Part shown: piece by piece, positions 894 through 22,207 of the stretch
How positions within the stretch are numbered: the stretch's first letter is position 1
How the letters are laid out: each line of letters starts with the position of its first letter
Virus record (IMG/VR): IMGVR_UViG_3300032224_001167
Span: 1-32,044 of that record
Source: a virus
Direction: 5' to 3' (one strand)
Length of the DNA: 32,044 nt
Program-made: the position numbers and the translations under genes
Notes under the pieces: model-generated
Told to the model about the DNA's origin: nothing
Database searches by the model: none
The model's input: the letters and a program-made list of their open reading frames with translations, nothing else

Positions 894-1676
894 ATGATTA
901 AGTTAACTGACTTATTATTAGAGGCACAATTGCCTTCTAGTGAACAAGATATGGATTTTTATGCTAAAAAGTATAAGAAAACCATTGATTATTTAAGACA
1001 AAAGAATAAAGTATTGTTGTTGACAACCAGTAATAGATGGTCACAACATAAAGAAGATGTTCCTAAGAGCAGTCAATTGGCTATAAAAATTCAAGATTTA
1101 TTAGGTAAAGAAAAAGTCACGTTAATTGATACTACAAAACTTAATATAGTTCCGTGTGAAGGTAATGTAAGTAGTAACAGAGAATTTGATGGCAATCATT
1201 GTGGAACTGTAAAATCGTTATTAAAAGATAAAGAAAAAAATCCAAGTGGGTATCATCGTTGTTGGGCTAGTATAAATAATAAAAGTGATGAATTATGGAA
1301 AATAAGTAAAGAATTATTTGAAAGTGATACAGTTTTATTTTTTGCTAGTGTTAGATGGGGACAAGCTAATGGGTATTATCAAAAATTAATTGAAAGATTA
1401 ACTTGGATTGAAAATAGACATTCTACATTAGGAGAAAAAAATATAGTAAAAAATATTGACGCAGGATTTATTGCGACTGGACAAAACTGGAACGGAAAGT
1501 ATGTCACTAAAACACAAAAAGAAGTGCTTCAATTTTTTGGATTCAATACACCCGATGAATTATTTTGGAACTGGCAATTCACGGATAATACTCTTGATGA
1601 AACAAATCGTTCCTACAATAAAGCCATTACAACATTTGACAATACATTTTTAAAACCATATGATAAAGCTGAATAA
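894..1676 (+). CDS. Flavodoxin-like NAD(P)H/FMN oxidoreductase with a capsid-targeting-like leader
   Basis: 260 residues from the ATG at 894. An in-frame ATG at 792 lies inside the previous gene and would put the promoter box inside the coding region, so 894 is preferred. A first beta strand (KVLLLTT, residues 39-45) is followed by a phosphate-binding-type loop TTSNRWS (44-50). Later ESDTVLFFASVRWGQANG and KLIERLTW (143-171) match the second flavin-side strand and helix of NADPH-dependent FMN reductases. Substrate is unknown. The N-terminus MIKLTDLLLE|AQ has the [L/I]xE|A form cut by T4-type prohead proteases, and resembles the leader of the next protein. I infer that this enzyme may be packaged in the head. 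It overlaps the next gene by 17 bases. The fold is fairly clear; packaging is a hypothesis. Confidence 0.7.
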   Translation: MIKLTDLLLEAQLPSSEQDMDFYAKKYKKTIDYLRQKNKVLLLTTSNRWSQHKEDVPKSSQLAIKIQDLLGKEKVTLIDTTKLNIVPCEGNVSSNREFDGNHCGTVKSLLKDKEKNPSGYHRCWASINNKSDELWKISKELFESDTVLFFASVRWGQANGYYQKLIERLTWIENRHSTLGEKNIVKNIDAGFIATGQNWNGKYVTKTQKEVLQFFGFNTPDELFWNWQFTDNTLDETNRSYNKAITTFDNTFLKPYDKAE

Positions 1677-4632
1677 TTTAGAACATTTTTTGGTATCTAA
1701 TATATTACTTAACGAAGCTGCTCGCATAGACCATGCGGAAGATTTGATATTTTGGGAAGGTTCCAAAGGAGCCATTCGTTCAATCAAAAGTTTCATCGAA
1801 TTAGAAAAAGAAGGATATAAAAATGTTACATTAAAATGGGATGGTTCTCCGGCAGTTGTTTTTGGTAGAAATGATGAAGGAAAATTTGTATTAACCGATA
1901 AAAGCGGATTTGTTGCCAAAGGATATAATGGCAGACCAACGTCACCAGAAGAATTGGAACAAATGTTTTTGAATAGAGGTAAAAGCGTAAAAACAGACGA
2001 ATATGGATTGTTTGTTCAAGAAATGAAACGTGTATTTTCTATATTTGAATCTGCGGTTCCAACAACATTTAGAGGTTATTTCAAAGGCGATTTGTTATAT
2101 TTTAATACACCATTGATTGAAAATGGAAGATATGTTTTTAAACCAAATATTGTTACATATACAGTAGATGTTAATTCTGAATTGGGAAGAAAAATTGCAC
2201 AAAGTAAAGCTGCGGTTGTAGTACATAGAGAAGTAGACAGTTTTGGAAATGAAACTGCGATTACAAATTACAATGTATTTCAAGGCAATCAATTATTAGT
2301 AATACCACCAATATCTGTACATAATCCGCCTGATGTAAATGAAAAGAGGTTGAAAGATATTGTACTTTATATTAATAAATATGCTAGAAATATAGATGAT
2401 TTTATTAATCCATCTAAATTGACAAGTATGAAAATGACTAATTTTCCAGATATATTATATAAATATTTGAATAGTAAAGTAGATACCGGATTAGTAAATA
2501 TTGGCGATGATTTTCTACAATGGATTAGTCAGAGTAATCTTACAGATACGATGAAAAAGAAAATTACTGATTATGTTAATAGTAATCGTGCCGGATTTGA
2601 ATCTTTATGGAAAGTTGTTGTGGAAATAATGACGGTTAAAGATGAAATTATTAATCAAATAGACAATCAAGATAGTGAAATTAAATCATATATAGGCAAT
2701 GAACCAGGAGGTGAGGGTTATGTATTCTCTCATCCAGAAGGTGATATTAAGTATGTTTCCCGTTCCAAATTCAGCGCAGCAAATAGAGCTGCGCATAAAC
2801 AACCAATTGATGAAGGTGGATGGTTAAAACCAGAACTTACATCCAAGACAGTTTTGTCACCAGATACAATTGAAAAAGCAACTGAAAAGTTTAAAGTTTT
2901 TTTGGCTGATTTGAATATGTTTTTAAGCGACATACCAATGACTCCAATTAAAGATTATCAAATATTAGGTTCGGCAGGATATTATAGACAAGACCAACAC
3001 GATAAAAAACAAGTAACTTATGGTGATATTGATGTAATGGTTGTTATACCAATTGAAACCGGTGAAAACGGCAGTGACATAAAAAAAGAATATATCAAAA
3101 ATGTAATTCAATTTATTGAAAAAGGAGGACAAAATTACATTGATATTGAAAGTGCAAAAAGATCGGATGGTAAACAGATTATAATCAAACTCGATGATGA
3201 TAGTTGGGTTCAATTGGATTTATTATATACTACAAAAATATATAAAGATTGGTTTGCGGCTAGATTTACACCTGAAAGAGGTATAAAAGGATTTACAATG
3301 GGAGGAATGTATGCTGCATTAGCAGAAATTTTAAATATTAGAATTGGCGATACCGGCGTAAGAGCTAAATTTAAGGATGGTAAGATTGTATCTCCAATGT
3401 TAAGAAAAGATGTTGTAGACAAATTGATATCTAATAGCCCCCGTACATTTTTAAGAGATTTGGCAGACTTTTTGGCCGAATTATTTAGTAAAAAGATTAC
3501 TGTTGTTGACCCAAATTTATCTACACACAGTGGCGTAAATCCATATAATGTTAAATTAAAAGATTTAACTACAGGTGTTCTTGGATTTGCAAGAACTCTT
3601 GATAAAAATGGTATTCTTTCTGATTTGGGATTTGATTATACATCATTTATTAAAACAATAAAAGACAAATATGCAGAAAAGATGATTGAACAATATTCAA
3701 AGAAAGAAAAGAAAGCAACTACACCAGAAACTCAAGCATCTATAGATAAGATTAAGAAACACGCTGATTTGGGAAATAAAATCGTTAATGATATATTGAA
3801 AGAATTTTTAATTACCGAAAGTGGTAATGCTGTTGCTGCAAATAGTGGTTTACCAAAACAATATTTAGATTCCACAATAAAAAATGGATTAAAAATATGG
3901 AATCTTGATTCATTAAATTATGAAATTATTGGAAACAAATCCAAACCAGTTCTGGGTGATATTGATGTCGCAGTATCCACTCAACAATTGAATCAATTAT
4001 TTGGTGTAGATTATGATTATGATAAAAAAATGTTTTATGATAAATTAAAACAACATATGGAAGCAAATAAACCTGCGACTGTTCCTACACCATCATTTAA
4101 AATAAATACGGGATTAGACCAATTACATTTAAATGTACCTATAATTGATGAAAATGGTAATCCTGTTAAATCAACCGAAATACCAAATGAAGATGGTTAT
4201 GTACAAATAGATTTGATGATTGGAGATTTAAATTTTATGATTAAATCTTTATCTGGTGCACCTGATTCTAAGTATAAGGCGGCATTAAGAAATATTCTAT
4301 TAATGAATATTATGTCTAATAGTTATGAACCTACTGAAGATCCAAACAAGATGAAAAGATATCAAATGAATTGGAAAAAAGGACTTCAAAGTGCAGATGT
4401 TATAACAAATGAAAAAGGTAAACAAGAAAAACAAAATATAAAAACTGTTTATACGGATATGGATGACGTTGCTAAATTTTTATTTGGCAATAATGTAACA
4501 TTTAATGACATTAACACTTTAGAAAAACTAATTAAATTAGTGAAAGGTAATACTTTTCGTTATAAAAACAAAAGAACTGAAATCTTAGATGATTTCAAAA
4601 AGGAATTGGAAAGATTAAAAGTAAAGTTATGA
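1660..4632 (+). CDS. Three-domain nucleotidyltransferase-like protein (ligase-like plus two Pol beta-like domains)
   Basis: 990 residues. Domain 1 (about 20-385) has the pattern of covalent nucleotidyltransferases (DNA/RNA ligases): KWDG at 59-62 (motif I, candidate nucleotide-accepting Lys59), GDLLY at 143-147, EGYVF at 352-356 (motif IV) and Lys364/Lys370 in a motif V-like stretch. Domain 2 has LGSAGYYR then GDIDVMVVI (Asp456, Asp458) and VQLDLLY (Asp520), the three-carboxylate pattern of Pol beta-type nucleotidyltransferases. Domain 3 repeats it: IGNKSKPVLGDIDVAV (Asp767, Asp769) and VQIDLMI (Asp851). The leader ends LLNE|AA at 19/20, a prohead-protease-type site. Further [L/I]xE|[AGS] sites fall at 385 and 720, between domains, and one at 130 inside domain 1. 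Its stop overlaps an ATG (ATGA) at 4629. Motifs are seen directly; activities and partners are inferred. Confidence 0.65.
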   Translation: MIKLNNLEHFLVSNILLNEAARIDHAEDLIFWEGSKGAIRSIKSFIELEKEGYKNVTLKWDGSPAVVFGRNDEGKFVLTDKSGFVAKGYNGRPTSPEELEQMFLNRGKSVKTDEYGLFVQEMKRVFSIFESAVPTTFRGYFKGDLLYFNTPLIENGRYVFKPNIVTYTVDVNSELGRKIAQSKAAVVVHREVDSFGNETAITNYNVFQGNQLLVIPPISVHNPPDVNEKRLKDIVLYINKYARNIDDFINPSKLTSMKMTNFPDILYKYLNSKVDTGLVNIGDDFLQWISQSNLTDTMKKKITDYVNSNRAGFESLWKVVVEIMTVKDEIINQIDNQDSEIKSYIGNEPGGEGYVFSHPEGDIKYVSRSKFSAANRAAHKQPIDEGGWLKPELTSKTVLSPDTIEKATEKFKVFLADLNMFLSDIPMTPIKDYQILGSAGYYRQDQHDKKQVTYGDIDVMVVIPIETGENGSDIKKEYIKNVIQFIEKGGQNYIDIESAKRSDGKQIIIKLDDDSWVQLDLLYTTKIYKDWFAARFTPERGIKGFTMGGMYAALAEILNIRIGDTGVRAKFKDGKIVSPMLRKDVVDKLISNSPRTFLRDLADFLAELFSKKITVVDPNLSTHSGVNPYNVKLKDLTTGVLGFARTLDKNGILSDLGFDYTSFIKTIKDKYAEKMIEQYSKKEKKATTPETQASIDKIKKHADLGNKIVNDILKEFLITESGNAVAANSGLPKQYLDSTIKNGLKIWNLDSLNYEIIGNKSKPVLGDIDVAVSTQQLNQLFGVDYDYDKKMFYDKLKQHMEANKPATVPTPSFKINTGLDQLHLNVPIIDENGNPVKSTEIPNEDGYVQIDLMIGDLNFMIKSLSGAPDSKYKAALRNILLMNIMSNSYEPTEDPNKMKRYQMNWKKGLQSADVITNEKGKQEKQNIKTVYTDMDDVAKFLFGNNVTFNDINTLEKLIKLVKGNTFRYKNKRTEILDDFKKELERLKVKL

Positions 4633-4683: not shown

Positions 4684-5487
4684 ATGAATGAACGGTCTAT
4701 GTCTAATACTGGAATATATAAAATAAGAAATATCATCAATGATGACTGTTATATTGGAAGTGCATCATATACTTTCAATAAACGATGGAATACACATAAA
4801 CACCAATTAAAAAATAATAAACATCATTCTATCATTCTTCAAAGAGCGTGGAATAAATACGGAGAAAACAATTTTAAATTTGAAATTATAGAATGTTGTG
4901 AACCATCTGAATGTTTAATAAAAGAACAACATTATTTGGATAATTTAAAACCAAAATATAATATAAATCCAAATACTGAAAGTCCACTTGGCAGAAAACT
5001 TAAACCAGAAGACTGTAAAAAAATATCAGATAGAACAAGTGGTATAAAAAATCCATTTTTTGGAAAACATCACACAGAAGAAACTAAAAAATTACTTTCT
5101 GAAAAATTAAAAGGAAAAAATAAAGGAAAATTTTTGGCAGAAAAAAATCCAATGTATAAAAAAACACATTCTGATGAAAATAAAAAAATAATGTCTTTAT
5201 CTAGTAATCAATTTTGGAATAGTGAAATGGGAATAAAATTGAAAGAAATTAAATCAAAAGAAAAATTAGGAAAAACGAATCAATTTGCAAAAAAAGGATC
5301 TGAACATCCTAATTTTATTTCTACAACATACCATTTTGTTAATAAACAATTAAATGAAGAATTTGTAGGAACTATGTTTGATTTTAGAAAAAAATATAAA
5401 TTATGTTCAGATGTTTACTATCTATTAGATGGTAAAAAGAAAAAATATCAACAATATAAAGGATGGACTATAAGTTATGAGAAGTAA
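4684..5487 (+). CDS. GIY-YIG homing endonuclease with NUMOD3-type repeats
   Basis: 267 residues from 4684, or 262 from the ATG at 4699 (MSNTG), which may be the real start. The GIY-YIG domain begins at TGIYKIRN, with CYIGSA about 14 residues on, KRWNTHKHQL carrying the conserved Arg, and LIKEQHYLD carrying the catalytic-type Glu. Two NUMOD3-like DNA-binding repeats follow (NPFFGKHHTEETKK and NPMYKKTHSDENKK). It is a T4 Seg-like mobile nuclease sitting between the nucleotidyltransferase gene and the putative small terminase. The last 11 bases overlap the next gene, and its end SYEK is encoded by the duplicated AAGTTATGA sequence that supplies the next gene with a new start. The family call is strong; the target site is inferred to lie at the start of the downstream gene. 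Confidence 0.9.
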   Translation: MNERSMSNTGIYKIRNIINDDCYIGSASYTFNKRWNTHKHQLKNNKHHSIILQRAWNKYGENNFKFEIIECCEPSECLIKEQHYLDNLKPKYNINPNTESPLGRKLKPEDCKKISDRTSGIKNPFFGKHHTEETKKLLSEKLKGKNKGKFLAEKNPMYKKTHSDENKKIMSLSSNQFWNSEMGIKLKEIKSKEKLGKTNQFAKKGSEHPNFISTTYHFVNKQLNEEFVGTMFDFRKKYKLCSDVYYLLDGKKKKYQQYKGWTISYEK

Positions 5488-11317: not shown

Positions 11318-11935
11318 ATGAATAAAAAATTATTAGTAGATTGCATAACATTTGATGTAGATAAATCAGTACTTAACGAAGCAATGGCAAAAGGTGGTCC
11401 ATTGGTTGTACAAGGTGTTCTACAAAGAGCCGAAGCTAAAAACCAAAACGGTAGAGTATACGGCAAAGAAATTTTAGAAAGAGAAGCTCATAAATATGAT
11501 GAAAATTTCATCAGAGAAAGAAGAGCACTCGGTGAATTGGATCATCCAGACAGTAGCGTTGTGAATTTAAAAAATGTAAGTCACAACGTAAAAAGAATGT
11601 ACTGGAATGGCAATGATTTAATGGGTGAAGTTGAAATTTTAACTACACCAAGTGGTAATATTTTAAAAGAATTACTAAATTGCGGTATTAAGTTGGGTAT
11701 TAGTTCAAGAGGAATGGGAAGTGTTAAAAAGAATGTACACGAAGGTACTGATGAAGTTCAGGACGATTTTGAATTGATTGCATTCGATTTTGTTAGTAAT
11801 CCATCAACTAAAGGTGCATTTATGTTTCCATCTGGCGAACAATCTTTACAAGAAGGAATTGTAAAAAATCCATTAACTAATAAGTGGGAAAAGGTAGAAG
11901 ATTTAATCAGAGACATTTTAGGCGAAATTAAATAA
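11318..11935 (+). CDS. Prohead protease and core protein (gp21-like)
   Basis: 205 residues. This serine protease matures the prohead by cutting capsid, scaffold and internal proteins after [L/I]xE. Typical features are NGRVYGKEIL, ALGELDHPDSS (catalytic-type His76), LGISSRGMGS (Ser129/130) and LIAFDFVSNPSTKGAFM, the expected layout of the herpesvirus-assemblin-like fold. VLNE|A at 21/22 and SLQE|G at 179/180 match the enzyme's own cut rule and probably mark N- and C-terminal self-processing. It is one of few genes here with a clear Shine-Dalgarno (AAAGGAG at 11301-11307, 10 bases before ATG). A perfect-stem terminator follows. Its substrates are likely encoded close by (scaffold 15287, capsid 16397). 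Confidence 0.93.
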   Translation: MNKKLLVDCITFDVDKSVLNEAMAKGGPLVVQGVLQRAEAKNQNGRVYGKEILEREAHKYDENFIRERRALGELDHPDSSVVNLKNVSHNVKRMYWNGNDLMGEVEILTTPSGNILKELLNCGIKLGISSRGMGSVKKNVHEGTDEVQDDFELIAFDFVSNPSTKGAFMFPSGEQSLQEGIVKNPLTNKWEKVEDLIRDILGEIK

Positions 11936-11943
11936 TTATATTA

Positions 11944-11975
11944 ATAAAACACATTTAATTTGTGTTTTATTTTTT
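11944..11975 (+). terminator. Rho-independent terminator after the prohead protease
   Basis: A 10-base perfect stem ATAAAACACA (11944-11953) pairs with TGTGTTTTAT (11961-11970) around a 7-base loop, then a T run. It closes the protease unit before the endonuclease. Confidence 0.75.
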
Positions 11976-11991
11976 GTATTTGTATGTAATT

Positions 11992-13683
11992 ATGTACAAA
12001 GACAAACGCTATATGATTAAAAACTGGATAGAGAATAATTTAATTTCAAATAAAAAACTTGTATCTAAAAGATGTAAAAAAGAATGGTTTATTAAAAATA
12101 ACTATATTGATGTGTATAATGAAATCTTATTAGAAACTAATTTTTTAAATGATTCAACATTTCCGCAAAAAATATGGCATATAGTAAATGAAAAATTTAG
12201 TTTGTATAAGTGTAATAATCCTAATTGTAACAATGTACCTAATTTTTTAACATATACAAGTGGATATTCAAGAACATGTAGTAATGTATGTGCTCAATTT
12301 GATCCACAAACTGTAAGCAAAATAAAACAGACCAATTATAAAAAATATGGTGTTGAATATGGATTGAGCAACAAAGATATAATTGAAAAACGAAAAGTTA
12401 CATGTGTTAAAAACTATGGTGTAGATAATCCTACTAAATCACAAATTATTTTGGATAAAATTGCAAGTTCAAATAAAGAAAAATATGGTGTTGAATGGAT
12501 TTTACAAAATCAGTCTAAAAAAGAATTGGCGATGATTAAAAAATACGGTGTTAAAAATATACAACAAAGTCAGGAAATAAAGTTAAAAACATCTGTTACA
12601 CGTAGATCTTTGTTTTATGATAGTTTATTTTCTACAGATAGATTGAAAAGTAAAGTTGTTCCTTTATTTTCAAAGGATGAATATGTTATTGATGGATATT
12701 ATTCAAACTTTAAATTTAAATGTTTAACTTGTAATACTGAATTTTTTGATTGTTTAGAAGACGGTGATGTTCCTAGATGTACAAAATGTTATAAACATTC
12801 TTCAATTTTTGAAGAAGAAGTATTTAATTTTATACAAAGTTTAGTTACAGTTGGTATCAAACGAAATGATAAAACAGTATTAAATACATTAGAATTAGAC
12901 ATTTATATATGTGACAAGAAGATTGCATTTGAATGTAATGGTTTGTATTGGCACGGTGAAATTAATGGTGGTAAGAATAAAAAATATCATTTGAATAAAA
13001 CTTTAGAATGTGAAAGTAAAGGAATACGATTAATTCACATCTTTGAAGATGAATGGTTATTTAAAAAAGATATTGTTAAAAGCCGAATTAAAAATCTGTT
13101 AAATAAAAATGAAAATAAAATTTTTGCAAGAAAATGTACAATAAAAGTAATAAAACCATCAGAATCAAATTATTTTTTAGAAAAGAATCATATTCAAGGA
13201 AAAGATAATTCATCTGTTAAACTGGGATTATTGTTAAATAATGAATTAGTATCTGTTATGACATTTGGTAAATTAAGAACCGCATTAGGAAATAAAAATA
13301 AGATTGATATATGGGAAATGTATAGATTTTGTAATAAAACCAATACTACAGTAATTGGTGCGGCTAGTAAATTACTAAAATATTTTATAAAAACATACTA
13401 TCCTAAAAAAATAATAACTTATTCGGATAAAAGATGGAATTCAGGTAATCTATATACAACACTAAATTTTATAAAAATTTCAAATGGTACTCCCAATTAT
13501 TGGTATTATGGAAAAGGTAATAGTTATAAAAGACATCATAGATTTAGTTTTGCCAAACACATATTATCCAAAAAAATAAAAACATTTGATATCAATTTAA
13601 CTGAATGGGAAAATATGAAAAATAATGGATATGACAGAATATGGGATTGTGGAAGTGACAAATTTGAATTCAATATAGTTTAA
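11992..13683 (+). CDS. Homing endonuclease with KYGV repeats and a PD-(D/E)XK/Vsr-like nuclease domain
   Basis: 563 residues from the ATG at 11992. A GTG at 11962 would start inside the terminator stem, so it is rejected. The N-terminal half has a CNNPNC...C...C zinc-binding-type segment, then repeats of the form KYGVE/N-x-S-x-I-x-K-x-T (near KKYGVEYG, KNYGVDNP, KEKYGVEW and KKYGVKN), typical of modular DNA-recognition regions in phage mobile nucleases. The nuclease core is LELDIYICDKKIAFECNGLYWHGE, with acidic residues spaced as in the fragment at 2-874. The rest matches that fragment along its length, down to NGYDRIWDCG. It lies between the protease terminator and the gene at 13737. A weak box TATTTGTA lies 7 bases before the start. 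Confidence 0.8.
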   Translation: MYKDKRYMIKNWIENNLISNKKLVSKRCKKEWFIKNNYIDVYNEILLETNFLNDSTFPQKIWHIVNEKFSLYKCNNPNCNNVPNFLTYTSGYSRTCSNVCAQFDPQTVSKIKQTNYKKYGVEYGLSNKDIIEKRKVTCVKNYGVDNPTKSQIILDKIASSNKEKYGVEWILQNQSKKELAMIKKYGVKNIQQSQEIKLKTSVTRRSLFYDSLFSTDRLKSKVVPLFSKDEYVIDGYYSNFKFKCLTCNTEFFDCLEDGDVPRCTKCYKHSSIFEEEVFNFIQSLVTVGIKRNDKTVLNTLELDIYICDKKIAFECNGLYWHGEINGGKNKKYHLNKTLECESKGIRLIHIFEDEWLFKKDIVKSRIKNLLNKNENKIFARKCTIKVIKPSESNYFLEKNHIQGKDNSSVKLGLLLNNELVSVMTFGKLRTALGNKNKIDIWEMYRFCNKTNTTVIGAASKLLKYFIKTYYPKKIITYSDKRWNSGNLYTTLNFIKISNGTPNYWYYGKGNSYKRHHRFSFAKHILSKKIKTFDINLTEWENMKNNGYDRIWDCGSDKFEFNIV

Positions 13684-16396: not shown

Positions 16397-18076
16397 ATGA
16401 GTGATATTAAATCATTATTGACAAACAATATGAATCCACAGGCTAAGTTGATGACTGAAACCCGTGGATTGCAAAGCAAATGGGACAAGACTGGTCTTCT
16501 TGAAGGACTAGAAGGTGTTGATAAGGCACATATGTCCATCTTGCTTGAAAACCAAGCACAACAATTGTTGAACGAAGCTACCGCTACTGGTACTTCTGCA
16601 AACAGTGAACAATGGGCTGGCGTAGCTCTCCCACTAGTTCGTCGTGTATTCGCTGAAATCTCCGCTAAGGAATTCGTTTCAGTACAACCAATGAACCTAC
16701 CATCTGGTCTTATTTTCTATCTAGACTTCAAGTATGGTACTACCCGTGGTGGTCTTCCTGGCCAAAACGGTTACAATGGTCAATCATTGTTCGGTGGTAA
16801 CGGATTAAAGCTCGGTTCTACCGATGCAGCAGTAAACGGTCTATACGGTGTAGGTCGTTATGCATATACTGAAAACTTCACTTCTTCAGTATTGTCATTT
16901 ACTACAGGTTCAGTAAGCTTCAGTGATGTTGACTTGGATTCAACTTATGTTGCTACAGGTTCATACAGAAAACTTACTGTAAACGTCGGCGACAATACCA
17001 GCAACAGAATTGATTTGAATGCGGTAAGAAGCTTTGCTTTGAGCGGTTCATCAATTGATCCAACCCTACAAATCAATGAATTAACCAAGGTATATAACAC
17101 TGGTTCATTGGCATCTCCATATTACAGAATTCAATTCATTGTAACTGGTTCACAAGCACCAACTCCAGGTACTGCTACCTTGACATATACAGTACAACCT
17201 ACTGATAGTACCCGTGGTGACTTCGAAGATACAAATCCATTCAAAGGAACTGCAGGAGGTACTTCTGGTATTAACCAAGGTACTGATATCAACATTCCAG
17301 AAGTTAACTTGGAACTTAAGAGCGAACCTATCGTTGCTAAGACTCGTAAGTTAAAGGCAGTCTGGACCCCAGAATTGGCTCAAGACTTGAATGCTTACCA
17401 CAGCATTGATGCAGAAGCAGAATTGACTGCTCTCTTGAGTGAATACGTATCAATGGAAATTGATCTTGAAATTATGGACATGTTGATTAATGCAGCTCCT
17501 GCATTGACAACCGAAGCATGGTCCGCCGTAATTGGTAGAGATATCATTAAGGGTGCAAATGATGCAAATGGTATCCCAACATTTACCGTAAACAACGATT
17601 CAACCAATCGTACCGCTTACGTAAAGAGCACTTGGTTCCAAACTCTTGGAAACAAGATTCAAAAAGTATCCAACAGAATTCAACAATTGACTCTACGTGG
17701 TGGTGCAAACTTCCTAGTAGTTGGACCAGACGTAGCAACCATCTTGGAATCAATCCCAGGATATGTTGTTAACACTGACGGTGATTCTGCTAAGTTCGCA
17801 ATGGGTGTAAGTCGTGTTGGTAGCTTCGCAAGTCGCTTCCAAGTCTATAAGAACCCATATATGCAAGAAAACACCATCTTGATGGGCTTCCGTGGAAATA
17901 ACTTCCTAGAAACAGGTGCTGTATATTCCCCATACATCCCACTAGTACAAACTCCATTGGTATACGATCCAGTCAACTTCACACCACGTAGAGGTGTATT
18001 GACTCGTTATGCTAAGAAAGTAGTGCGCCCCGAATTCTACGGCAAGATATATGTTTCCGACTTAGATCAAATCTAA
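16397..18076 (+). CDS. Major capsid protein (gp23-like)
   Basis: 559 residues; T4 gp23 has 521. It forms the hexamers of the shell. The match to T4 gp23 is plain: a cleavable N-terminus ending LLNE|ATATG at 60/61 (T4 cuts at 65 after LTE), then VRRVFAEISAKEFVSVQPMNLPSGLIFYLDFKYG, SRQ-region counterpart VAKTRKLKAVWTPELAQDLNAYHSIDAEAEL, SMEIDLEIMDMLINAA, FLVVGPDVATILESIPGY, and the C-terminal FTPRRGVLTRYAKK. A Gly/Ser/Thr-rich insert near 155-270 may be a surface domain. Codons end in C or G far more often than in neighbouring genes (many AAC, TTC, ATC, ACC, AAG), as expected for the most highly expressed gene. It is co-transcribed with the scaffold (39-base gap, no promoter box) and ends at a strong terminator. 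Confidence 0.96.
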   Translation: MSDIKSLLTNNMNPQAKLMTETRGLQSKWDKTGLLEGLEGVDKAHMSILLENQAQQLLNEATATGTSANSEQWAGVALPLVRRVFAEISAKEFVSVQPMNLPSGLIFYLDFKYGTTRGGLPGQNGYNGQSLFGGNGLKLGSTDAAVNGLYGVGRYAYTENFTSSVLSFTTGSVSFSDVDLDSTYVATGSYRKLTVNVGDNTSNRIDLNAVRSFALSGSSIDPTLQINELTKVYNTGSLASPYYRIQFIVTGSQAPTPGTATLTYTVQPTDSTRGDFEDTNPFKGTAGGTSGINQGTDINIPEVNLELKSEPIVAKTRKLKAVWTPELAQDLNAYHSIDAEAELTALLSEYVSMEIDLEIMDMLINAAPALTTEAWSAVIGRDIIKGANDANGIPTFTVNNDSTNRTAYVKSTWFQTLGNKIQKVSNRIQQLTLRGGANFLVVGPDVATILESIPGYVVNTDGDSAKFAMGVSRVGSFASRFQVYKNPYMQENTILMGFRGNNFLETGAVYSPYIPLVQTPLVYDPVNFTPRRGVLTRYAKKVVRPEFYGKIYVSDLDQI

Positions 18077-18171: not shown

Positions 18172-18921
18172 ATGAAAATAGGTATTTACAAAATTACAAA
18201 TTTAAAAAACGGAAAATTTTACATCGGTTCATCAAAAGATATAGACAGAAGATGGTGGGAACATATAAATGAATTAAATAAAAATATTCACATAAATAAA
18301 AAATTACAAAATTCATGGAATTTTTACGGCAAAGATAATTTTAAATTTGAAGTAATTGAAGAATTAAATGATGAACAAATATTATTGGAAAGAGAACAGT
18401 ATTATTTAGATACATTTCAACCTTATAGAAACAATATTGGTTATAATATTGCATTAAGTTCTTCAGGAGGAGATAATTTTACACATAATCCAAATAAAGA
18501 AACTATAAGACAACAATTATCTGAAATGTATTCGGGAGAAAATAATCCTATGTTTGGAAAAAAACATAATAATGATAGTATTATAATTCAAAAACAAAAA
18601 GCATTAGGTAGATTTACTTTAAATTGGTTTGTTGAAAAATATGGAATTGAAATTGGAACTATAAAATATGAAGAGAGAAGAAATAATTTATCTTCAAGAA
18701 AAATAAATTACTCTTATGATAATAATAAAACAGGTAAAAAACAAGGTCCAATGAATGAAAACAGAAAAACAAACATATCCGTTTCAAAAAATAATATTAA
18801 AAAAATAAAACATGAATTATATCAAGACATATTATCCAATCAATATACAATTAAAGAACTTTCAATTAAATATAATTTGAGTGGAACTACTATAAAATAT
18901 CACAAACGAAAGATAAAATAG
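18172..18921 (+). CDS. GIY-YIG homing endonuclease with NUMOD3 and a C-terminal helix-turn-helix
   Basis: 249 residues. GIYKITN begins at residue 4, FYIGSS follows about 13 residues later, DRRWWEHINEL carries the conserved Arg, and LEREQYYLDTF the catalytic-type Glu. A NUMOD3-like module (ENNPMFGKKHNND, about 122-134) and a C-terminal HTH-like segment (QYTIKELSIKYNLSGTTIKYHKRKIK) would read DNA. It lies between the capsid terminator and the operon starting at 18939, with only 17 bases before that start. A weak GGTAAGG stretch precedes the ATG. Codon use is strongly A/T-ending, in sharp contrast with the capsid gene beside it. The family call is secure. Confidence 0.92.
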   Translation: MKIGIYKITNLKNGKFYIGSSKDIDRRWWEHINELNKNIHINKKLQNSWNFYGKDNFKFEVIEELNDEQILLEREQYYLDTFQPYRNNIGYNIALSSSGGDNFTHNPNKETIRQQLSEMYSGENNPMFGKKHNNDSIIIQKQKALGRFTLNWFVEKYGIEIGTIKYEERRNNLSSRKINYSYDNNKTGKKQGPMNENRKTNISVSKNNIKKIKHELYQDILSNQYTIKELSIKYNLSGTTIKYHKRKIK

Positions 18922-20740: not shown

Positions 20741-21433
20741 ATGGGAGTAAGATATTCACCAGCAATAGTTACATCAGGATTAGTACTATCTTTAGATGCG
20801 GCAAATAGAAAAAGTTATCCTGGCACAGGAACTACTTGGTCCAATTTAAGTGGTAATAATATAAATTTTACAACGTTTAATAGTCCAACTTTTAACAATA
20901 ACAATTGTGGGTATTTTACGTGGAACGGATCGAGCACATATGCAACTGCGCCTGAAAGTAGTTTGTTTAATACCGAAACATTTACAATTGAATGTTGGGC
21001 GAGAACATCAAATTTAAATCAAAATGGATTTTTATTTGAAAAAGGAAATGTAAATACACAATATGCTTTATTTTTTGAACAAAATAATAATTTAAAACTT
21101 AGAACAAATACGGTTACTTCTGGAATAGCCGATTTAAGTATAAATACTTCTACTTATTTAACATCGAATGTTTGGTTTCTTGTAACTGCAAGTTATAATT
21201 ATGGAATCAAACGAATATATTTTAATGGGTCTTATGTTTCTACTCAAACAGTTTCTGGAGGATTTACTACTAATGCAAATGGTATGTCTATCGGAGTTTA
21301 TGGTGGATATAACGGATCTAGAGGATATTATTATTCTGGAGACATCTCTAATTTAAAATTTTATAATAGAGTATTAACCGATGATGAAATTTTACAAAAT
21401 TATAGAGCAACAAAAAATAGATTTGGATTATAA
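20741..21433 (+). CDS. LamG/concanavalin A-like lectin-fold protein 1
   Basis: 230 residues. It starts GVRYSPAIVTSGLVLSLDAANRKSYPGTGTTWSNLSGN, then has the LamG core: FTIECWART, GFLFEKGN, WFLVTASYNYGIKRIYFNGSYV, and GDISNLKFYNRVLTDDEILQNY. These are the standard blocks of phage-encoded LamG/laminin-G-3 domains, used to bind glycans or decorate the particle. It is paralogous to the next gene over its whole length, including the C-terminal RFGL. Both lie in the operon downstream of the capsid genes. Capsid or neck decoration, or a fibre-tip lectin, fits best. Confidence 0.85.
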   Translation: MGVRYSPAIVTSGLVLSLDAANRKSYPGTGTTWSNLSGNNINFTTFNSPTFNNNNCGYFTWNGSSTYATAPESSLFNTETFTIECWARTSNLNQNGFLFEKGNVNTQYALFFEQNNNLKLRTNTVTSGIADLSINTSTYLTSNVWFLVTASYNYGIKRIYFNGSYVSTQTVSGGFTTNANGMSIGVYGGYNGSRGYYYSGDISNLKFYNRVLTDDEILQNYRATKNRFGL

Positions 21434-21436
21434 TAT

Positions 21437-22207
21437 ATGGGATTAACACATTCACCTAAAATAATTACAAACGGATTAGTATTAGCTTTAGATTCAGTTA
21501 ATACAAAAAGCTATACGAGTGGAAGTTCAACGTGGATTGATTTAAGTGGCAATAGTAATAGTTGTATAGTAAGTGGAAATCCTACATATTCAAATGGAGT
21601 TTTTACTTTTAATGCGATAGATCAATTTTTTTATGTAAATACATCAACTGGATTTTTTAACGTTTCAACCAATTCATTTTTCGCAGATAATACTACTTCA
21701 TGGTCTGTATCAGCATGGTTTAAATTTCCTGTATCGCCCCAATCTGTAAGAGATTCAACGGTAAACGCTGGAAACTGTTCTTATGCTATACTAGGAAAAT
21801 CTGGTGGAATAGGCGGAGGAGAAACAATAACATTATTTGTTAGTGCTAATAATAGTACGACTTCCGCCGGTTCTTTATATCCGTATTTATTATGTGTTGG
21901 CATTAGAGGAACAAAAACACAAATATCACCAGGTTCTGTAAACACTAACACTTGGAATAATGTTGTTGTTACTTGGGACGGTAGTGCAGGAAGATCGTAT
22001 TTTAATGGCGCAGATAGAGGGGCTTTAAATATTGGTGCAGTAGCAACTCAAACTGGTACATATTTATGTATAGGTTGTACGGCTAATCAACCTAGTAATC
22101 ATGGATTTGAAGGTAGCATATCTCAAGTTTCTGTTTACAGTAGATCATTAACCATAACTGAAGTGTCTCAAAATTACAATGCAACAAAAGCAAGATTTGG
22201 ATTATAA
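21437..22207 (+). CDS. LamG/concanavalin A-like lectin-fold protein 2
   Basis: 256 residues, starting 3 bases after the first LamG gene. The start GLTHSPKIITNGLVLALDSVNTKSYTSGSSTWIDLSGN aligns with the upstream copy, as do SWSVSAWFKFP, WNNVVVTWDGSAGRSYFNGADRG, GSISQVSVYSRSLTITEVSQNY and the final RFGL. The extra length lies in loops, mainly around PQSVRDSTVNAGNCSYAILGKSGGIGGGE. Tandem duplication and divergence most simply explain the pair, possibly giving two glycan specificities. No terminator-like stem is evident before the next endonuclease. Confidence 0.85.
   Translation: MGLTHSPKIITNGLVLALDSVNTKSYTSGSSTWIDLSGNSNSCIVSGNPTYSNGVFTFNAIDQFFYVNTSTGFFNVSTNSFFADNTTSWSVSAWFKFPVSPQSVRDSTVNAGNCSYAILGKSGGIGGGETITLFVSANNSTTSAGSLYPYLLCVGIRGTKTQISPGSVNTNTWNNVVVTWDGSAGRSYFNGADRGALNIGAVATQTGTYLCIGCTANQPSNHGFEGSISQVSVYSRSLTITEVSQNYNATKARFGL

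Follow-up and report, generated by a model that had tools for sequence, protein, structure and literature searches.

In this study, we analysed a 32,044-nucleotide stretch of viral DNA (IMG/VR record IMGVR_UViG_3300032224_001167; hereafter the window) and found that one of its genes, P0001, joins a DUF6267 domain of ligase type (part A) to two Pol beta-like domains (parts B and C), with predicted prohead-protease motifs lying exactly at the limits of the three parts (Table 1). Our interpretation of the whole, offered tentatively and as slightly short of an even chance, is that P0001, the product of a T4-like aquatic phage, is a precursor that would be packaged into the prohead, cut there, injected and used to repair nucleic acid early in infection.

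Table 1. Coordinates of P0001, its parts and predicted sites, and related genes in the window
Feature	Position	Strand	Remarks
Gene upstream of P0001	894..1676	+	260 aa from ATG 894; T4-type capsid-targeting layout
P0001, DUF6267 + two Pol beta-like domains	1660..4632	+	990 aa precursor (predicted)
N-terminal propeptide MIKLNNLEHFLVSNILLNE, residues 1-19, candidate capsid-targeting sequence	1660..1716	+	ends L-N-E↓A
Part A, residues 20-385, probable covalent nucleotidyltransferase of ligase type (DUF6267)	1717..2814	+	
Prohead-protease site I-D-E↓G (predicted; cleavage behind residue 385)	2806..2817	+	
Part B, residues 386-720, Pol beta-like	2815..3819	+	hGS...GDID (456/458)...VQLD (520)
Prohead-protease site I-T-E↓S (predicted; cleavage behind residue 720)	3811..3822	+	
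Part C, residues 721-990, Pol beta palm + thumb fold	3820..4629	+	GDID (767/769)...VQID (851)
Peptidase_S77 prohead protease, T4 gp21 type	11318..11935	+	Pfam 2.6e-27, PHROG 207 2.8e-53
Major capsid protein gp23	16397..18076	+	3.8e-71; indicates T4-like head type

P0001 and its genomic context

The open reading frame of P0001 starts with ATG and runs without interruption for 990 residues, and it carries the KWDG, GDLLY and EGYVF motifs and the two DID...QxD triads that the first-pass annotation had placed in a single protein. About 40 IMG/VR contigs encode orthologues with 85-94% identity, and whole P0001 as query returned close kin and three distant loci, and nothing else. The gene is part of a T4-like head module comprising terminase (6166), portal (7783), the S77 protease (11318) and gp23 (16397), and this protease is the presumed processing enzyme of P0001. 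The upstream gene overlaps the start of P0001; its N-terminus, MIKLTDLLLE↓A, makes its product a candidate packaged protein as well, and by eye this product is flavodoxin/FMN-reductase-like.

Homing-endonuclease genes lie around the head module at 4684-5487, 11962-13683 and 18172-18921, with a further one at 2-874 recognised by eye only; the one at 4684 stands directly behind P0001 and is missing at that place in a relative (L028). Two adjoining laminin-G/concanavalin-like lectin genes (20741-21433 and 21437-22207) probably encode host-binding structural proteins.

Domain assignment of parts A, B and C

Residues 23-378 of part A match DUF6267 (PF19782) at 6.7e-32, with 111.7 bits against a cut-off of 27 and coverage of model positions 4-374 of 376. 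The order of its motifs, namely KxDG (KWDG at K59), acidic motif III (GDLLY at D144), EG motif IV (EGYVF at E352/G353) and lysine motif V, is that of covalent nucleotidyltransferases; motif III has D, where known ligases have E. In 32 sequences reaching down to 23% identity, and again in 58, K59, D61, G62, D144, E352, G353 and K364 were invariant, as were H25, E27, D28, F160, P162, H189 and R368 in the same alignments. Between motifs III and IV, the AlphaFold2 model of A (pLDDT 90) shows a helical insertion (~228-335); it stops one helix past motif V, so that an OB domain, by which DNA ligases are recognised, is missing; a DNA-ligase model was likewise absent from the Pfam matches listed for A. 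Structure searches of the PDB gave ligases in nearly all of the best 24 matches outside the family (best E 0.019, TM 0.13-0.2), the first being fungal Trl1 tRNA ligase, Palaeococcus RNA ligase (Rnl3), DNA ligases I and III, ASFV ligase and T4 Rnl2. After DUF6267 kin, the named matches in BFVD were mostly RNA ligases (best 1.4e-3, low TM-score). The weakness of the single ligase matches is perhaps due to the helical insertion seen in the model, and A is likely a divergent, RNA-ligase-like member of the covalent nucleotidyltransferase superfamily.

DUF6267 was present in 468 of 50,697 phage records and in at least 585 IMG/VR stretches, and is nearly absent from cellular genomes (3 loci), for which reason a host origin of the family was dropped. 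Cultivated phages that encode A include Methylophilales phage Melnitz and Stenotrophomonas phage DLP_6. The literature searched yielded no paper naming DUF6267 and none describing it as a ligase.

Part C is clearly Pol beta-like, its model being folded as the palm and thumb of a family-X DNA polymerase. The top 33 structure matches in the PDB were all Pol beta or TdT (best 1bpy, E 3.2e-5, prob 1.00), and the palm-thumb match to 3lqc had a TMt of 0.47. By sequence, C had no match in the PDB and was assigned no family in the PHROG search; the Pfam model DNA_pol_B_thumb was weakly matched (0.038) in 3 of 27 C members, and RlaP (PF10127) was not among the Pfam families matched by these 27. The family motif is LGSTGxKxTSGDLDV...VQTD, with GN for GS in P0001 itself, and D767, D769 and D851 were invariant across the 27 homologues.

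Part B carries LGS...GDID...VQLD with the acidic residues D456, D458 and D520, that is, an hG[GS]...DxD pattern followed by a third D. In the model of B and C together, C was well predicted and B poorly, and the alignment of B with C was weak (E 0.0022, low probability). No homologue of B was found outside the P0001 lineage, the only one in which it was seen. Searching the PDB with a sequence profile of each of the three parts gave nothing useful. Ligase-type and Pol beta-type folds, as anticipated by the first-pass annotation, were thus recovered unevenly: firmly for C, by a run of individually weak matches, mainly to ligases, for A, and by the motif with a poor model for B. We hold the assignments of A and C with high confidence.

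Genomic pairing of C with a ligase-type gene

A profile scan with C gave 67 loci outside the P0001 lineage, 65 of which had room downstream and were testable. DUF6267 followed C in every one of these 65 marine loci (fused to it in 9, adjoining it in 55 and 910 bases away in 1), and C lay upstream, fused or within 910 bases, in 68 of the best 68 DUF6267 loci. Gene order thus marks C and A as a widespread conserved phage gene module, mostly of two separate genes. As a rule, g1 (~92 aa) comes first and is followed by C, A, a 130-aa gene and g2 (~300 aa); among the fusions the order varies: C-A, C-A-HIGH (L046) and A-B-C (P0001). The small conserved g1 (MKKRTRSILEEL...) precedes C and the conserved g2 (EARMTR...LTYTDCCERLYL) follows A in most loci (L070, L077, L103, L117 and others); no known family was found for either. 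In one C-A-H relative (L045), an in-frame stop at 2943-2945 within DUF6267 leaves the gene in two pieces.

In rhizobial jumbo phages, C comes after a different, RNA-ligase-like gene, which replaces DUF6267 as its neighbour. The gene adjoining C in Atu_ph07 has 324 aa, and the BFVD matches of A include a 324-aa Atu_ph07 RNA ligase, which appears to be the same gene, matched by length and not by accession. With the ligase family swapped and C retained, it is the pairing of a Pol beta type with a ligase type that is conserved. Several paralogous genes after C in this Agrobacterium phage (L242, 6588-10360) are ADP-ribosyltransferase-like by eye. We had expected C beside A in cyanophages too; this was ruled out in the cyanophages examined, where A is followed by a HIGH-type cytidylyltransferase-like gene and adjoins replication genes. 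In lineages with this partner, the HIGH enzyme may even turn NMN, given off by a ligase that uses NAD+, back into NAD+. An NHEJ system of LigD-like or Ku type was also considered, and the searches run gave no Ku or phosphoesterase match.

These linkages bear on RNA repair as an alternative, in which A would be an RNA ligase, with C and B putting back the nucleotides that tRNAs lose on cleavage and opposing the anticodon nucleases of the host, as has been proposed for RlaP and RNA ligases. That A, without OB domain, is most similar to tRNA and RNA ligases and that the partner of C in Atu_ph07 is RNA-ligase-like would fit it, as would the cooperation of RlaP, a Pol beta nucleotidyltransferase, with neighbouring RNA ligases described in jumbo phages (PMC7824862). 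However, C gave no match to the RlaP model, and the palm and thumb of its fold recall family-X DNA polymerases; Atu_ph07 has an RlaP gene of its own, separately at 154923; and no single additional RNA-repair gene could be made out beside most C/A pairs, where most neighbours are without known family. In addition, RlaP is not known from that source as a prohead-processed precursor of the kind proposed here for P0001, whose ligase-type part is DUF6267. We consider RNA repair a minority possibility, though a serious one.

Predicted prohead-protease sites

The T4 protease gp21 cleaves after L/I-x-E, and the T4 internal proteins and Alt have N-terminal propeptides of this type and are ejected (PMC9026906). 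Four L/I-x-E↓A/G/S motifs occur in P0001, at residues 19, 130, 385 and 720, three of which coincide exactly with the domain limits; the divisions drawn by the first-pass annotation (20-385, 386-720 and 721-990) match the motifs to the residue. The IFES at residue 130 lies within A of some orthologues, which indicates that cutting at every motif is not required. With LNE↓A at residue 19 and a protease of gp21 type encoded by the same phage, P0001 has the layout of a T4-type processed internal head protein. Among the genes of the window, the motif falls within the first 45 residues only for P0001 and the gene upstream of it, for the protease, and for gp23 and the gene just ahead of it.

In fused relatives, the motif lies at most 15 residues before 66 of 67 domain starts, a count that is not independent for B, whose start was set by the motif. 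Ten representative fusions, scored for A, C and HIGH starts only, had it before 19 of 20 domain starts; swapping Glu for eight other residues as a control gave 0-2 of 20. Junction windows held 68 of the 84 motifs versus 4.2 expected, the significance being overstated because the sequences are related. An N-terminal motif was found in 67-81% of the module genes (A 56/83, C 63/78, g2 47/60) versus 12% of other genes (75/611), and it preceded 51 of 58 A cores versus 2% of background windows. A strict, ten-residue version of the T4 capsid-targeting pattern, which occurred in 12/85 A, 2/75 C and 29/696 other genes, was not decisive, and we therefore relied on the shorter published cleavage motif. 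The sampled cyanophage forms of A are without propeptide and rhizobial C begins at the mature GG end, also without propeptide; since both keep the core, the motif is dispensable for the fold. The position of the sites between the domains makes P0001 probably a precursor and not one working enzyme, and on this sequence pattern we judge its processing by the prohead protease to be probable.

Virion data from relatives

A putative cytidylyltransferase has been reported in virions of S-SM1 (PMC3037559) and S-CREM2 (PMC10665884), and an NMNAT-like enzyme in those of S-SCSM1 (PMC9602691); the HIGH-type partner of A is this enzyme. In S-CREM2, the N-terminus of gp154 is MKNFSSFLTE↓A, and the DUF6267 protein gp87 has no propeptide and is not among the 52 virion proteins (PMC10665884). 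The pattern of gp154 and gp87 is consistent with, and no proof of, packaging of the propeptide-bearing forms. Four auxiliary virion proteins of S-CREM2 (L246, L248), gp6, gp13, gp14 and gp154, share an MKxxxxFLxE start, and Cas9 (gp12), also detected in the virion, carries FMAE↓A close to its N-terminal end; such starts look like a capsid-targeting code in cyanophages. For the simple motif, the excess in S-CREM2 virion proteins (3/16) over others (6/93) was non-significant (p 0.13). For Atu_ph07, 29 virion proteins are reported among CDS 31-76 (PMC6102473); counting from gp70, the C gene seems to lie within this block, which was not used as packaging evidence.

P0001 might instead be neither packaged nor processed, an ordinary fused repair enzyme of the infected cell with L/I-x-E sites that are linkers or coincidence. 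The cyanophage A and rhizobial C forms without the motif and the cyanophage gene placed by replication genes would both suit this, but the motif at 19 of 20 domain starts, against 0-2 for the control residues, and the junction-window excess in these related sequences speak against it; we regard it as improbable. Quite improbable, too, is that the ejected enzymes modify host proteins or small molecules in an AMPylation-like manner, comparable to T4 Alt, and not nucleic acids: the constant pairing of ligase type and polymerase type, even with the ligase replaced, better suits nucleic-acid joining, although packaging is predicted, Pol beta-type domains are known in injected polyvalent proteins (PMC5512222) and genes that look ART-like by eye stand behind C in Atu_ph07.

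Proposed function and comparison with known systems

For the preferred reading, prohead packaging followed by repair, we infer cleavage, packaging, ejection, activity and substrate as follows. First, the N-terminus of P0001 would direct the precursor to the prohead core, where the S77 protease would cut after Glu19, Glu385 and Glu720, freeing A as a ligase-type adenylyltransferase and B and C as two Pol beta-like enzymes. Second, the released parts would be packaged with the genome and then ejected into the host. Third, at the start of infection, the polymerase would fill gaps or restore lost nucleotides and the ligase would seal the strand. Incoming phage DNA would be the most likely substrate, since the timing and the C fold tip the balance slightly towards DNA; RNA ends, to which the A fold and the RlaP precedent (PMC7824862) point, come a close second. 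End processing or repair, suggested on first pass, stays the favoured function, a putative role to which we give an even chance, whereas the idea of a single working enzyme gives way to that of a probable precursor. The most specific version, a self-packaged capsid polyprotein whose gap-filling polymerase and sealing ligase would be injected as three enzymes after protease cutting, is distinctly more doubtful. We know of no such virion-borne repair kit from phages.

The first-pass annotation knew of no named protein with this layout. The combination in P0001 indeed appears undescribed while its parts resemble known things, but a Pol beta-like core and a ligase already occur within one viral protein in PgVPolX, the DNA polymerase X of Phaeocystis globosa virus, for which gap filling and sealing have been shown (PMC5537341). 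PgVPolX differs from P0001 in that its ligase belongs to the NAD+ DNA ligases, a lyase activity is present, there is just one Pol beta domain and the parts stand in reversed order, and it comes from a eukaryotic giant virus and not from a T4-like phage. ASFV Pol X and ASFV DNA ligase are a minimal viral pair of this kind; unlike P0001, they are separate genes of a eukaryotic virus, and the ligase contains an OB domain. T4 Alt and IPI-III share with P0001 an N-terminal propeptide ending in L/I-x-E, and their prohead targeting and ejection into the host (PMC9026906) are for P0001 predicted from sequence; they are single enzymes or small proteins with no ligase or polymerase and no multi-enzyme precursor. 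Part A belongs with the DUF6267/PHROG 455 proteins of T4-like cyanophages, which often adjoin or are fused to the HIGH-type enzyme and, unlike P0001, have in the forms sampled no propeptide and no Pol beta partner in that position. The literature searched held no description of this Pol X-like family and no prohead-cut precursor of nucleotidyltransferases.

Significance

Our analysis proposes a role for DUF6267, an uncharacterised family that hundreds of marine T4-like phages carry, and for a Pol X-like family to which neither Pfam nor PHROG gives a name. Should cleavage be demonstrated, P0001 would represent the delivery of several enzymes in fixed ratio by a tailed phage, via a precursor cut in the capsid, of which, to our knowledge, there is no earlier case in tailed phages. 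It would also suggest that phages mend their genome, or RNA that has been cut, ahead of their own gene expression.
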